A DNA stretch of 64,000 bases from Pseudomonadota bacterium (lineage in GTDB: Bacteria > Pseudomonadota > Gammaproteobacteria > Steroidobacterales > Steroidobacteraceae): NCBI GenBank assembly GCA_018241505.1, contig JAFEDS010000010.1:1-64000 (forward strand), given 5' to 3'. The notes below the pieces were generated by a model, which saw only the letters and a list, made by a program, of their open reading frames with translations, had not been told where the DNA came from and did not search any database. Of this stretch, positions 51,513 through 56,368 are shown one piece after another; position 1 is the stretch's first letter, and every line of letters begins with the position of its first letter. The position numbers and the translations under genes were made by a program.

Positions 51513-52313
51513 ATGTCTCTCGCCGACGCTGTAGCAATCGATGCTGCATACACCGAGTCACCGGCGCAGCAATTCGCCCGACGGGGATTTGTCACCATCG
51601 AGTCCCTGACGACGGCCGCGGACATCGCCCGAATCCGCTTGCTGTTGGATCCGCTGTTCGACCGGTTCGACTCGCTCGGCGAACGGGCGGTGGATATTGC
51701 CGGACCGCGGGCGCCGGGCGCCGCCCTGCGTTCACCGGAAATCAATGAGGCGGTAAAGTTGGTCCCGGAGCTGACAGACACGCTCGCCTATGCACGCTGC
51801 CGGCAGTTCGCCCGCCAGTTCCTCGGCGTTCCGGTCGGATACATGTTCGATCACGCGATTTACAAACTGCCACATAACAACGCCTCGACCGCGTGGCATC
51901 AGGACGAAGCGTACTCAGCACGCCCCATCCCGCTGCGGTCGGTCCATTTCTGGATTCCTCTCCAGGACGCCACCTTGGATAACGGCTGTATGTGGTTTAT
52001 TCCCGGCTCGAATCTCGGCGGCGTGCGTTCCCACCACGTCGCCGCCATCAGGACGACTGGCACTGATTACAAACCCGCCGGGGCCACCATTACAACCCAG
52101 GATGTAGATCCGACCAGGGCCGTTCCCTGCCCACTACCCATTGGCAGTGCCACCGCGCACCATCCGCTGACTTTGCATTACACCGGACCGAATCAGACGG
52201 ACCACTGGCGCCGCGCATGGATACTGCACTTCGGTGCATACGGCCGGGCCCGTTTCCTGCTGCATCCGAAAATGATTGGCGCGCAAATCTCCGCATTGCT
52301 GCGGGCCTTTTAA
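51513..52313 (+). CDS. phytanoyl-CoA dioxygenase (PhyH) family protein
   Basis: 266 residues from the ATG at 51513; a TTG at 51504 adds three residues. It is a predicted Fe(II)/2-oxoglutarate oxygenase with the His-x-Asp in STAWHQDEAYS, the distal His in LTLHYTGPNQTD and the 2-oxoglutarate Arg in WRRAWILHFG. It hydroxylates a small molecule, perhaps an amino acid, fatty acyl or secondary metabolite. It stands alone, convergent with the WD40/kinase gene, its stop overlapping that gene's end by 4 nt. Confidence 0.88.
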   Translation: MSLADAVAIDAAYTESPAQQFARRGFVTIESLTTAADIARIRLLLDPLFDRFDSLGERAVDIAGPRAPGAALRSPEINEAVKLVPELTDTLAYARCRQFARQFLGVPVGYMFDHAIYKLPHNNASTAWHQDEAYSARPIPLRSVHFWIPLQDATLDNGCMWFIPGSNLGGVRSHHVAAIRTTGTDYKPAGATITTQDVDPTRAVPCPLPIGSATAHHPLTLHYTGPNQTDHWRRAWILHFGAYGRARFLLHPKMIGAQISALLRAF

Positions 52314-53605
52314 GCTCGCGGTGGATGTTCGTATTTTTTGCGCACGGCGGCGAAGGCGTCGCTAACTTGTTGCATCATCCCTTCGCGCTCTAGTATTCGA
52401 GCGAGCGACGCGCGGCGATAACGCCAGCTCACCCAGATATCGTCAGGCCAATCCTCACTGCGGGCGCGCTCCGCGGCAGCCGCATAATATTTAAAGGACG
52501 CGATCAGATAGTCACGCCTTACCGGCGCTGACGTCTGCGAGACGGCAGCCGCTGCTTCGCGTTCGGCAAGACGTGCCAGTGAGTGCGGCTCATCCGCTTT
52601 CGCCCCGCGTTCGTACCACGTCCAGGCGTGCGGCAGATCGCCACGCATTTCATACAGGTGTCCGAGCTGAAACCCGGCGAAAGTAACACCCTCCGCCCAG
52701 GCTCGTTCTAAGAGAGTAACAGCACGGCCAAAATTGCCAGCCGCGCCCTCTCCTTTCACCAGAAGCATAGCCAAGTCAATGCGAGCGGCTCGATACTTGC
52801 CGTCGATTGCACGTTCGAATGCGCGCCGGGCAGCCGGCTGATCGCCGGTGGCCAGCAATGCGCGCCCGTGCTCATAGACCCACCGCGGCTCCCCCACCAT
52901 GCTTTGGTGTTCCGTGCCACACGCCTGGCTGGCGATATCACCCACGATCTGTTCGGATGCAACACCCGGGGCCCGTCTGTCTGGATCATAGGGTGCGCCG
53001 GCGGTCTCGTCGCACTTCGAATGGTCACCAATCCAGGGCCGTGCGTTTGTCGGGGTGAGCAATCCGAGAGCAAATCGTTGCTTGGGATCCAACGACTCGA
53101 ACTGCGCGGCTTCGATCCAGCGCATCTGCTGCGCAATCGGGGTCACGCGCGCATCCCAAATGCGCGCCACACCATCATCAGAGGCCGTCACGATTCGATC
53201 GCCATCGGCCGAGAATGCGGCACTCTCCACCTGGTCGGGGTGTCGCAGCACCAATAATTGCTCGCCGGTGACAGCGCTCCAGACCCGCGCCGTCTTATCG
53301 GCCGACGCAGTGGCAATCTTCAGACCATCCCGGGACATCGAGACATCCGGGACCTGGTCCGAATGTCCATACAGCGTCAGGACTTCCCGACCGGTGGCCA
53401 CGTCCCACACTCGCGCAGTCTTATCGTCGGAGGCGGTAAGGATCCGCGTTCCGTCGGGCGAGAACTCCGCTCGTTCCACTACGTCGGCATGACCGCTGAA
53501 GACAGCTAACTGCTGCCCTGTGAATGCATCCCAGATGCGGGCTGTTTTATCGTTCGACGAAGTAACGATCCGCCGGCCGTCCGCGGAAAAGAAGGCATTC
53601 TCCAC
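52310..53605 (-). pseudogene. 3' part of the kinase-WD40 gene after an in-frame TGA (WD40 repeats 11-14 and Sel1/TPR-like end)
   Basis: 431 codons counted from a GTG. The reading frame is the same as that of the kinase gene upstream, and sequence between the TGA and this GTG reads NVATGHLVRILEGHGG, a normal repeat. So this is the rest of one protein of about 1352 residues rather than a separate gene. It holds the last four WD40 repeats of an apparent two-propeller array, then a helical region with Sel1/TPR-like pairs (NFGRAVTLLERAWAEG, WTWYERGAKADEPHS). No ribosome site is evident before the GTG. Independent expression or TGA readthrough cannot be excluded. Confidence 0.8.
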
Positions 53606-53656
53606 CGGGCCACCATGACCTTCCAGGATACGAACCAGATGACCGGTGGCAACATT

Positions 53657-56368
53657 TCAAATGCGCGCTGTTTTGTCCAACCCCGCTGTGACCACGCGTT
53701 GGCCATCGGGCGAAAACGCGGCGGAGAACACCGCTTCGGTGTGCCCTGTCAGCACAACGAGCTCCTGCCCTGTTTCCGCATCCCAGATACGAGCCGTCTT
53801 ATCGGTGGAAGTGGTCACCGCACGTCGGCCATCAAAAGAAAATGCGGCACACGTCACTCGCTCCCTGTGCCCCACCAACTGGACGAGGGCCTTACCCGTT
53901 TCCGCATCCCAGATACGAGCGGTTTTGTCGAACGACGAGGTGATGATCCGCTGACCGTCCTGTGAGTACAGCGCACTGCTCATGGCATCTGTATGGCCTA
54001 CCAATTCTCCGAGGCGTTTGCCGACCATGTCCCAGATCCGAACGGTGCGGTCGCTCGAGGCCGTGATGGCTCGCGAGCCATCCCTGGAAAAGACAGCGGA
54101 TTCCACAGTATCCGTGTGCCCCGCCAACAGAAATAGTGGCTGGCCGGTGTTGGAATCCCAGATTCGCGCCGTCCGGTCATAGGCGGCCGTGATGACATTC
54201 TTGCCATCGGCTGAAAAAGTGGCTGCCGCCACAAGCTGCGTGTGACCGCGGAGTTGAACCAGCTCCTTTCCCGTCGAGACATCCCAAATTCGGGCGCTCT
54301 TGTCTCCGGACGCCGTGAGTACGCGCAGACCGTCCGGCGAGAATTCTGCCGACGTCACGCGGTCCGTATGCCCGACCAACCGCTTCACTTCACGCCCCGT
54401 GACAGCGTTCCAGATACGAACAGACTTGTCATACGACGCCGTCACTACGCGGGTCCCATCGGGAGAAAATCCCACACCGGAGATCACCTCGTCGTGACCC
54501 GTCAGCACCTGGAGTTGCTTGCCCGTTGCAACATCCCATATGCGCGCCGTGAGGTCGTACGACCCGGTGACGAGCCGGCGACCATCGCGAGAGAACCCAA
54601 GTGACCGCAGCCGGTCCGTATGACCCTTGAAAACCTGCAGCGCTTGTCCGGTTTTGGCATCCCACAGGCGGGCGGTTTTGTCATACGAGGCCGTGGCAAT
54701 GCGGCTGCCATCCAGGGAAAACACGATTTGTATGAAGTGCGCGCCCGGACCTGCGAGCGTCCTGATCTCCTGGCCGGTCTGCGCATCCCACAGCCGTGCC
54801 GTGTTATCGAACGAGGCCGTGGCAATCAGGCGCCCGTCGGGCGAAATGGCAACCGACCGCACCCGATCCGTATGTCCGGTGATTGCCAGGATCTGCACAT
54901 CCGCGGCACGTGCTTCCTGCAATACATTCAACGCTTCCGGTTGGCCCCCGTCGTGCAACACTTCCAGAATGATGTTAATCGCTCCCGAGACATCACCCTC
55001 GCGCAGGCGCGCGGCGGCGGTCTGAGTCAAGGAGCGGCGGTTGGCTTCCAAGGCATTGTCGCGTTGGCGGGCCGCGATCCTGGCTTCATACGTGGTCGCC
55101 GCCAGGCCGGCCAGTAGAGTGAGCAGAAGGATGGATCCAACACCGATTCCAACCCAATGACGACGAGCAAACTTCAGCGCACGGTAGTGCAGCGTATCGC
55201 GCCGCGCAAGCACTGGGTCCCCCGCCAGATACCGAGCTAAATCTTCCGCAAACGCGTCGACTGTCGTGTATCGGTCCGCCGGTACCTTCTTCAGCGATTT
55301 GAGGACGATCGTGTCGAGGTCACCCTGCAGCGCCGCGGCAAGCTTGCGTACGTTGGTCCCGCGGTTCGCTGCGGCGGCTTCGGTCAACGCCGCGCGGCTC
55401 GGGGGTACCGCATCGGCCTCCAGAATCGCATGCTCCAGCGCGCCGCGCGACTCCGCCTTGAGCCTATAGGGACGCTCGCCGGTCAACAGACCATACAACA
55501 GCACGCCGAGCGAGTAGACATCGGCGGCGGTACTGACCGATTGCCCCAGAATCTGTTCCGGAGCGGCAAAGTCCGGAGTGAGGGCACGGCCGCCGAGTTG
55601 CGTCAGCTCAGTCTCGCGCGACTGCCCGTCGCCCAGCAGCTTGGCAACGCCGAAATCCAGCAGGTGCACCTGGCCATCGTGGCTGACCAGGATGTTGGAC
55701 GATTTGAGATCCCGATGAATGACGAGGTGGCCGTGCGCATACTGCACGGCCGCCAGCACCTGTTGGAACAGGGCGAGTCGTTCGCCGAGCGACAACTTGT
55801 GATCGTCGCAATAGGTTGAGAGTGGAGTACCGACAATGTACTCGAGCGCCAGGTAAGGCTGGCCGTCGTCCGCGATGCCCGCATCCAACAGACGCGCGAT
55901 GTTCGGATGACTCAAGCTCGCCAGGATTTCGCGTTCGCGGGCGAACCGCTCGGCCGTCACCCAGCTCACCAGCGCGGTATGAACCAACTTGAGCGCCACC
56001 TTGAACAAGCCGTCGGTGCGCTCCGCGAGCCAAACACTCCCCATGCCGCCGCGCCCCAGAAGCGCCAACACGCGGTACGACCCAAACTGCCTGCCAACCA
56101 GCGTCGTGTCGGAAGACAACGTCGTATCGGCCGGCACCGACGGCATTTCCTCCAGGAAGTTGTCGGCCGAGTAGGCCACTTGCGCGGTAAACATCCCGCG
56201 CAGAATGGCGGCGGACTTCGGGTCGGTGCGCTCCAGCGTGGCTAGCCAGACCTGCCGGTCGCTGGGAATCATGTCGATGGATTCGTCCAGCAGGGCCGAG
56301 ATTCGAAAGTACGCGTCTGCGCTCAGCCCCTTGAGAAAATCGCCCGCCCCTATGGACTCATCACTCAT
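53657..56368 (-). CDS. Ser/Thr protein kinase with WD40 repeats, cut by an in-frame TGA
   Basis: 903 residues to the TGA. A PknB-like kinase (about 70-340) has the Gly-rich loop LLGRGGMGSVWLAE, the catalytic IHRDLKSSNIL, DFGVAKLL and a later APE in PDFAAPEQIL. One membrane segment (about 410-430: HWVGIGVGSILLLTLLAG) separates it from an extracytoplasmic array of ten WD40 repeats (from about 500), each ending like KTARIWD. The TGA replaces the Trp of repeat 10's final WD, so the tenth repeat is truncated. The full protein would have 14 repeats, two seven-bladed propellers. The kinase half should still be functional. Confidence 0.93.
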   Translation of the reverse strand: MSDESIGAGDFLKGLSADAYFRISALLDESIDMIPSDRQVWLATLERTDPKSAAILRGMFTAQVAYSADNFLEEMPSVPADTTLSSDTTLVGRQFGSYRVLALLGRGGMGSVWLAERTDGLFKVALKLVHTALVSWVTAERFAREREILASLSHPNIARLLDAGIADDGQPYLALEYIVGTPLSTYCDDHKLSLGERLALFQQVLAAVQYAHGHLVIHRDLKSSNILVSHDGQVHLLDFGVAKLLGDGQSRETELTQLGGRALTPDFAAPEQILGQSVSTAADVYSLGVLLYGLLTGERPYRLKAESRGALEHAILEADAVPPSRAALTEAAAANRGTNVRKLAAALQGDLDTIVLKSLKKVPADRYTTVDAFAEDLARYLAGDPVLARRDTLHYRALKFARRHWVGIGVGSILLLTLLAGLAATTYEARIAARQRDNALEANRRSLTQTAAARLREGDVSGAINIILEVLHDGGQPEALNVLQEARAADVQILAITGHTDRVRSVAISPDGRLIATASFDNTARLWDAQTGQEIRTLAGPGAHFIQIVFSLDGSRIATASYDKTARLWDAKTGQALQVFKGHTDRLRSLGFSRDGRRLVTGSYDLTARIWDVATGKQLQVLTGHDEVISGVGFSPDGTRVVTASYDKSVRIWNAVTGREVKRLVGHTDRVTSAEFSPDGLRVLTASGDKSARIWDVSTGKELVQLRGHTQLVAAATFSADGKNVITAAYDRTARIWDSNTGQPLFLLAGHTDTVESAVFSRDGSRAITASSDRTVRIWDMVGKRLGELVGHTDAMSSALYSQDGQRIITSSFDKTARIWDAETGKALVQLVGHRERVTCAAFSFDGRRAVTTSTDKTARIWDAETGQELVVLTGHTEAVFSAAFSPDGQRVVTAGLDKTARI

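Follow-up and report, generated by a model that had tools for sequence, protein, structure and literature searches.

The window, i.e., the whole stretch of 64,000 nucleotides that was analysed, carries on its minus strand a long reading frame that starts at the ATG at 56368 and runs through 903 open codons (53660..56368) encoding a Ser/Thr kinase, a hydrophobic segment and WD40 repeats 1–9 together with most of repeat 10. The frame is interrupted at codon 904 by a TGA (53659–53657) and continues in the same frame and without an indel over 448 further open codons to the final stop at 52312–52310, giving a total of 1352 positions when the inner stop is counted as one. The local translation at the interruption reads KTARI-stop-NVATG. 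A preliminary description of this DNA had reported the kinase and the following WD40 segment in one frame without an indel, the same junction and a length of 1352 residues, all of which were borne out by the coordinates, the open frame and the translation. A product terminated at codon 904 has a calculated mass of 97.6 kDa. In a mechanical ORF list, the part behind the stop appears as a downstream ORF (52310..53605, minus strand) opening with a GTG 18 codons past the stop.

The protein kinase domain spans residues 98–373 (55250..56077; Pfam PF00069), and the residues which we take to be catalytic are conserved in the alignment with homologs. It is followed by a likely transmembrane segment at about residues 407–430 (55079..55150), recognized as a peak in a hydrophobicity profile rather than by a topology program (maximum of 2.24 at residues 406–424). 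In front of the stop, Pfam searches matched Pkinase (4e-44) and WD40 (3.4e-101), with further WD40 repeats following behind it: residues 493–903 (53660..54892) comprise repeats 1–9 and most of repeat 10, and residues 905–1072 (53153..53656) the remainder of repeat 10 and repeats 11–14. Counted over the whole frame with the stop ignored, this reproduces the 14 repeats that had been proposed, the TGA taking the place of the Trp of repeat 10. The kinase domain shares its frame with WD40 repeats both in the pre-stop part and in the intact homologs described below. The last 280 residues (1073–1352; 52313..53152) form a helical TPR-like domain, which matched TPR_14 with 27.6 bits (cut-off 23.5) and contains helices, partly of low confidence, in the structure model of an intact homolog. 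The label “Sel1,” originally attached to this part, fits less well, as Sel1 was matched in homolog L065 only and there under the cut-off (E 0.11).

With a kinase and WD40 repeats joined in a single product, the gene resembles the PkwA-type kinase of Thermomonospora curvata as presented in the available part of the source (PMC6113231; 5YZV); unlike PkwA, it features 14 repeats followed by a helical C-terminal domain, and it carries a nonsense codon. Among solved structures, the closest sequence match (1.1e-130), which was also top in both fold searches, is the Nostoc double propeller 2YMU, whose 14 repeats make two WD40 domains and whose 577-residue chain consists of propeller only, according to the excerpted account (PMC5587647). 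This match and the 56 strands predicted in a structure model for the WD40 part of an intact homolog speak for the two seven-bladed propellers postulated earlier, but the arrangement itself is a low-confidence prediction (pTM 0.46) and the models superposed poorly on 2YMU (rmsd 15–17), so that a two-propeller organisation of the 14 repeats is best regarded as plausible. The model of the pre-stop array alone reached a pLDDT of 91.3 and a pTM of 0.85, the 50 fold matches listed for it had a query TM of 0.38–0.64, and closure of repeats 1–7 on their own was not discernible. If the arrangement is 2YMU-like, the shortened protein would retain the first propeller in full and an open second one, a picture which the structure models neither support nor contradict.

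Intact homologs and other relatives

Among the matches listed for the kinase part, the nearest were found in two genomes of the same genus (62% and 59% identity). Both encode the whole protein in a single frame (1397 and 1374 amino acids), and both share the C-terminal domain and feature 14 repeats (13 in each being caught by the pattern and the remaining one recognized by eye). At the aligned codon itself, which was compared in these two homologs only, both have Trp, followed by Asp (GAT). Intact homologs with a sense codon at the aligned place are what would be expected for a truncation allele.

A profile of the C-terminal domain matched 7 of 58 genomes of the genus at 1e-5 and three of them strongly, these three being the window's own and the two intact homologs, i.e., the sequences from which the profile was made. 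Scanning with the three-row C-terminal alignment yielded six loci, two of which are the contigs of the intact homologs (JANWKL010000157.1, a Steroidobacteraceae MAG, and JAGWPE010000350.1, a Gammaproteobacteria MAG); the other four belong to palsa_914 (three) and palsa_895 (one), labelled Alphaproteobacteria. These six relatives of the C-terminal module all lack a stop in the available frame, which makes the window one in seven. In four of them the frame extends back to an N-terminal enzyme domain, and the remaining two (L161 and L164) start at a contig end. Relatives carrying the same stop, which the preliminary description had named as a finding against its proposal, were not among them, and the close relatives it had suggested to inspect at this codon have Trp. 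Since Trp-Asp is present in both intact homologs and the stop is absent from all six relatives, the uninterrupted frame is, judged from these sequences, the ancestral one, with the stop seen only in the window.

With the whole downstream ORF as query, 27 of 60 related genomes gave a match, which beyond the window's own copy was partial only and mostly covered WD40 repeats. A first contig scan with the C-terminal part alone returned no relatives; class-wide, 2 of 369 genomes matched, one being the window's own and the other a weak match; and 293 plasmid records matched, none of them spanning 80% of the query.

Several kinase places among the matches listed (in contig C44 of the window's own genome and in genomes G031 and G427) had been flagged as containing one TGA. 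Inspected by eye, the stop lay at an ordinary gene end or ahead of the start, and no recurrence of TGA-split kinases was seen among the flagged places listed. At locus L068 (G031:C33, reverse strand, about 179020–180336), an ORF that by eye resembles a sigma factor ends with a TGA directly before a related kinase; the place was flagged because this ORF ends in the frame of the kinase.

Conservation behind the stop and decoding of TGA

Compared with four outgroup proteins, the C-terminal domain of the window has a mean identity of 47.6%, and those of the intact homologs have 48.2% and 45.8%. Counting columns that are invariant in the other six sequences, 5 of 81 are broken in the window, versus 7 of 83 and 9 of 85 in the intact homologs and 1–4 of 77–80 in the four outgroups. 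Conservation of the domain behind the stop is roughly level with that in the intact homologs, without clear acceleration, and the stop is therefore young or an error. Replacements private to the window amounted to 87 before and 67 behind the stop, versus 220 and 97 for the other two sequences together (Fisher p = 0.007); kinase and linker compared with the C-terminal domain alone gave p = 0.012, the WD repeats alone p = 0.22, and the codon-position shift p = 0.049 for the window (0.58 and 0.47 for the intact homologs), all of these values coming from several uncorrected tests. In the same private-replacement test, the homolog G440 deviates just as strongly in the opposite sense (p = 0.005), and the homolog G445 gives p = 0.92. 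The relative excess of private replacements behind the stop, a result of the cruder three-way test, would fit an older loss; taken together, the outgroup and three-way tests are best read as a young change, possibly accompanied by slight relaxation. The proportion of synonymous differences among the three sequences is 0.59–0.81, and dN/dS is not trustworthy here because they are too far apart. GC3 is 0.66 and 0.63 behind the stop, 0.78 in the kinase and 0.73–0.77 in the post-stop part of the homologs; in the window it is already at 0.66–0.73 between the kinase and the stop. The C-terminal domain of the window (52313..53152) lacks some 13 residues which all six aligned relatives have.

Relative to Trp-Asp (GAT) in both intact homologs, the window differs in two neighbouring codons, in agreement with the two adjacent changes noted earlier. 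The use of this adjacency as an argument against an error carries little weight, since W-N in place of W-D occurs naturally among the repeats of the family (6 of 86 motifs that a regular expression picked up in seven proteins, two of these proteins being partial). A harmless Asn may have been there already, the stop then needing one more change; a single double change is possible as well. Diversity-generating retroelements alter template adenines and were for this reason set aside as a candidate source.

On the 677-kb contig, we screened for stops flanked in the same frame by at least 150 open codons on each side (n = 179). Single-codon coding scores were too weak to recognize split genes and were replaced by two-codon scores and Pfam. 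By the two-codon score the frame was best on both sides in 53 of the 179 splits, and in 20 of these, the studied site included, the first start codon follows the stop at a distance of 8 codons or more. Pfam searches with pieces of at most 300 codons (one downstream piece lacking its first 13 codons) showed that 14 of the 19 other pairs divide different genes, five lacking a domain on at least one side, and no second split gene was found among these 14 decided pairs; splits with a start fewer than 8 codons away (33 of 53) and those that failed the coding filter (126 of 179) did not enter this step. The coding score of the 15 codons just past the stop, −0.41 at the studied site, was left unused as a measure. 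The final stops of 176 long frames were 96 TGA, 45 TAG and 35 TAA, and no sign of a general TGA reassignment was seen on the contig. Among the decided pairs of this one contig, the stop is hence an isolated case and not that of a recoded genome.

The genome encodes release factor 2, matched above the cut-off at 510 bits. Rfam gave 45 tRNA matches and ARAGORN called 44 tRNAs, 43 with a clear anticodon, none of which is UCA. The tRNA-Trp carries the anticodon CCA, and its anticodon stem has 5 bp in the minimum-energy fold (the outer pair being lost in the centroid fold), unlike the tRNA-Trp with a 4-bp anticodon stem that reads UGA in the accessible part of PMC13092985, with which the locus shares the TGA at a Trp position. 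Of 1223 tRNA-Sec candidates, 150 were scored, and the single match that reached the cut-off is a tRNA-Ser; the SelA match in the genome stays under its own cut-off, and neither component of a selenoprotein system passed. For UGA-to-Trp recoding, the genome offers neither a UCA tRNA nor an altered tRNA-Trp and retains release factor 2, although the assembly is 93.9% complete and a decoding gene could therefore be missing. The RNA near the stop did not stand out from shuffled sequences in folding (z = +1.04; 175 of 200 shuffles fold at least as well).

A tRNA-like gene on contig C43 of the same genome (about 86736–86808; L118, 336–409, minus strand) has, by eye, a 6-base anticodon loop, UUCCAA. 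It was not named by ARAGORN, is not close to any of 27 other tRNAs compared and may be a decayed tRNA.

Possible origins of the stop

Among the three readings offered in the preliminary description, a recent nonsense change is best supported, a sequencing error comes second, and readthrough or restart showed no positive sign in the tests made. We consider a recent nonsense allele yielding a shortened kinase of 97.6 kDa the most probable case (about 0.6). The ancestral gene would have encoded one polypeptide in which a Ser/Thr kinase and a single membrane segment are followed by 14 WD40 repeats, probably arranged as two propellers, and by the helical C-terminal domain, and the Trp codon in repeat 10 would have become TGA in this strain or in part of its population. 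Release factor 2 should end translation at this codon, presumably with high efficiency, and the product would comprise the kinase, repeats 1–7 as a first propeller and an incomplete second one (repeats 8–10), with the C-terminal domain missing. As the kinase would be left with an incomplete second propeller and no C-terminal domain, its sensor half is probably non-functional or altered. In the available part of the literature, leaky TGA decoding with insertion of Trp is known for enterobacteria (PMC7918605), and such decoding could still supply a little full-length protein here.

According to the accessible part of Belinky et al. (2021; PMC7918605), most in-frame stops in bacterial genes are short-lived, much as polymorphisms are. 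The locus is similar to the cases treated there in its single in-frame stop, its constrained downstream part and its expected short life; it differs in being represented by one genome only, which offers no within-species persistence or dN/dS. The finding is an ordinary one, adding one more in-frame stop of a kind already reported in bacteria, and its value is that of a negative case, in which a striking TGA at a Trp codon came without a sign of recoding in the tests made.

A clearly less probable, though still sizeable, alternative is a consensus or assembly error, the gene being intact in the organism and the TGA present in the deposited sequence only. Such a mistake would look the same as a recent nonsense allele, and it is favoured by a downstream part conserved like that of the intact homologs and by the nature of the evidence, i.e., one genome only, from a draft of 46 contigs that is 93.9% complete and 5.67% contaminated, with strain mixing being possible. 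Against an error, the codon lies well inside the 677-kb contig, and the difference from both intact homologs extends over two neighbouring bases, unlike in a single miscall, with the Asn change possibly being separate and genuine. Moreover, stop-to-stop frames of 450 codons or more, with almost no mutual overlap, account for 117,324 codons (352 of 677 kb), and the contig is thus not riddled with frame errors, an argument which bears on frame errors and not on substitutions.

Taken jointly, a functional readthrough or a restart is improbable. Under programmed or tolerated readthrough, most ribosomes would terminate and some would insert Trp, with the stop setting the ratio of short to long kinase. 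The conserved downstream sequence would suit this idea, Trp would restore the residue of the homologs, and TGA is described as leaky in Escherichia coli in the available part of PMC7918605. Yet a programmed event would be expected as a stop kept among species, and none of the six relatives has it; together with the missing UCA tRNA, the normal CCA anticodon and 5-bp stem of tRNA-Trp, the tRNA-Sec match that is a tRNA-Ser, the sub-threshold SelA and the RNA near the stop folding worse than the shuffle mean, this makes readthrough quite unlikely. Slightly more doubtful still is a species-specific variant, in which a tolerated TGA with low-level Trp decoding would act as a dosage dial setting the ratio of one-propeller to double-propeller kinase.

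A restart, with the downstream ORF being translated separately and the two pieces cooperating, appears very improbable. It could draw on an ORF of 431 amino acids whose GTG at 53605, the first start-like codon past the stop, has an anti-Shine-Dalgarno energy of −6.2. However, an energy of −6 or below is also seen at 4 of 23 start-like codons in the array ahead of the stop, and the value for the start of the gene itself is −9.3. The GTG is a valine codon within repeat 11, and the ORF therefore opens in the middle of a repeat; furthermore, the four relatives in which the N-terminus is present carry array and C-terminal domain as a fusion with an N-terminal enzyme. No evidence was found that this ORF is a separate gene. 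An old pseudogene, whose sensor half would have been lost at a distant time and would now be drifting, has a similarly slight chance, as the excess of private replacements (p = 0.007) and the 13-residue gap are set against 448 codons without a further stop or frameshift and against columns, invariant elsewhere, that are kept as in the intact homologs.

Apart from the stop, the surroundings of the WD40 array gave a further observation. A linker, the array and the “APYDPDR” helical domain form a module (52313–55150 in the window) which is preceded by a Ser/Thr kinase in the window and in L162 and L165, by a TIR domain in L160 (5325–8888) and by a cyclase and nSTAND1 in L163 (387–6200). Matches to a defence library were read as generic kinase, TIR and WD40 regions. 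The C-terminal module has the look of a sensor that is reused with exchangeable enzymes, and for research on bacterial signalling and defence this membrane, WD40 and helical module with its varied N-terminal enzymes (kinase, TIR, cyclase-nSTAND1) may be of greater interest than the stop.
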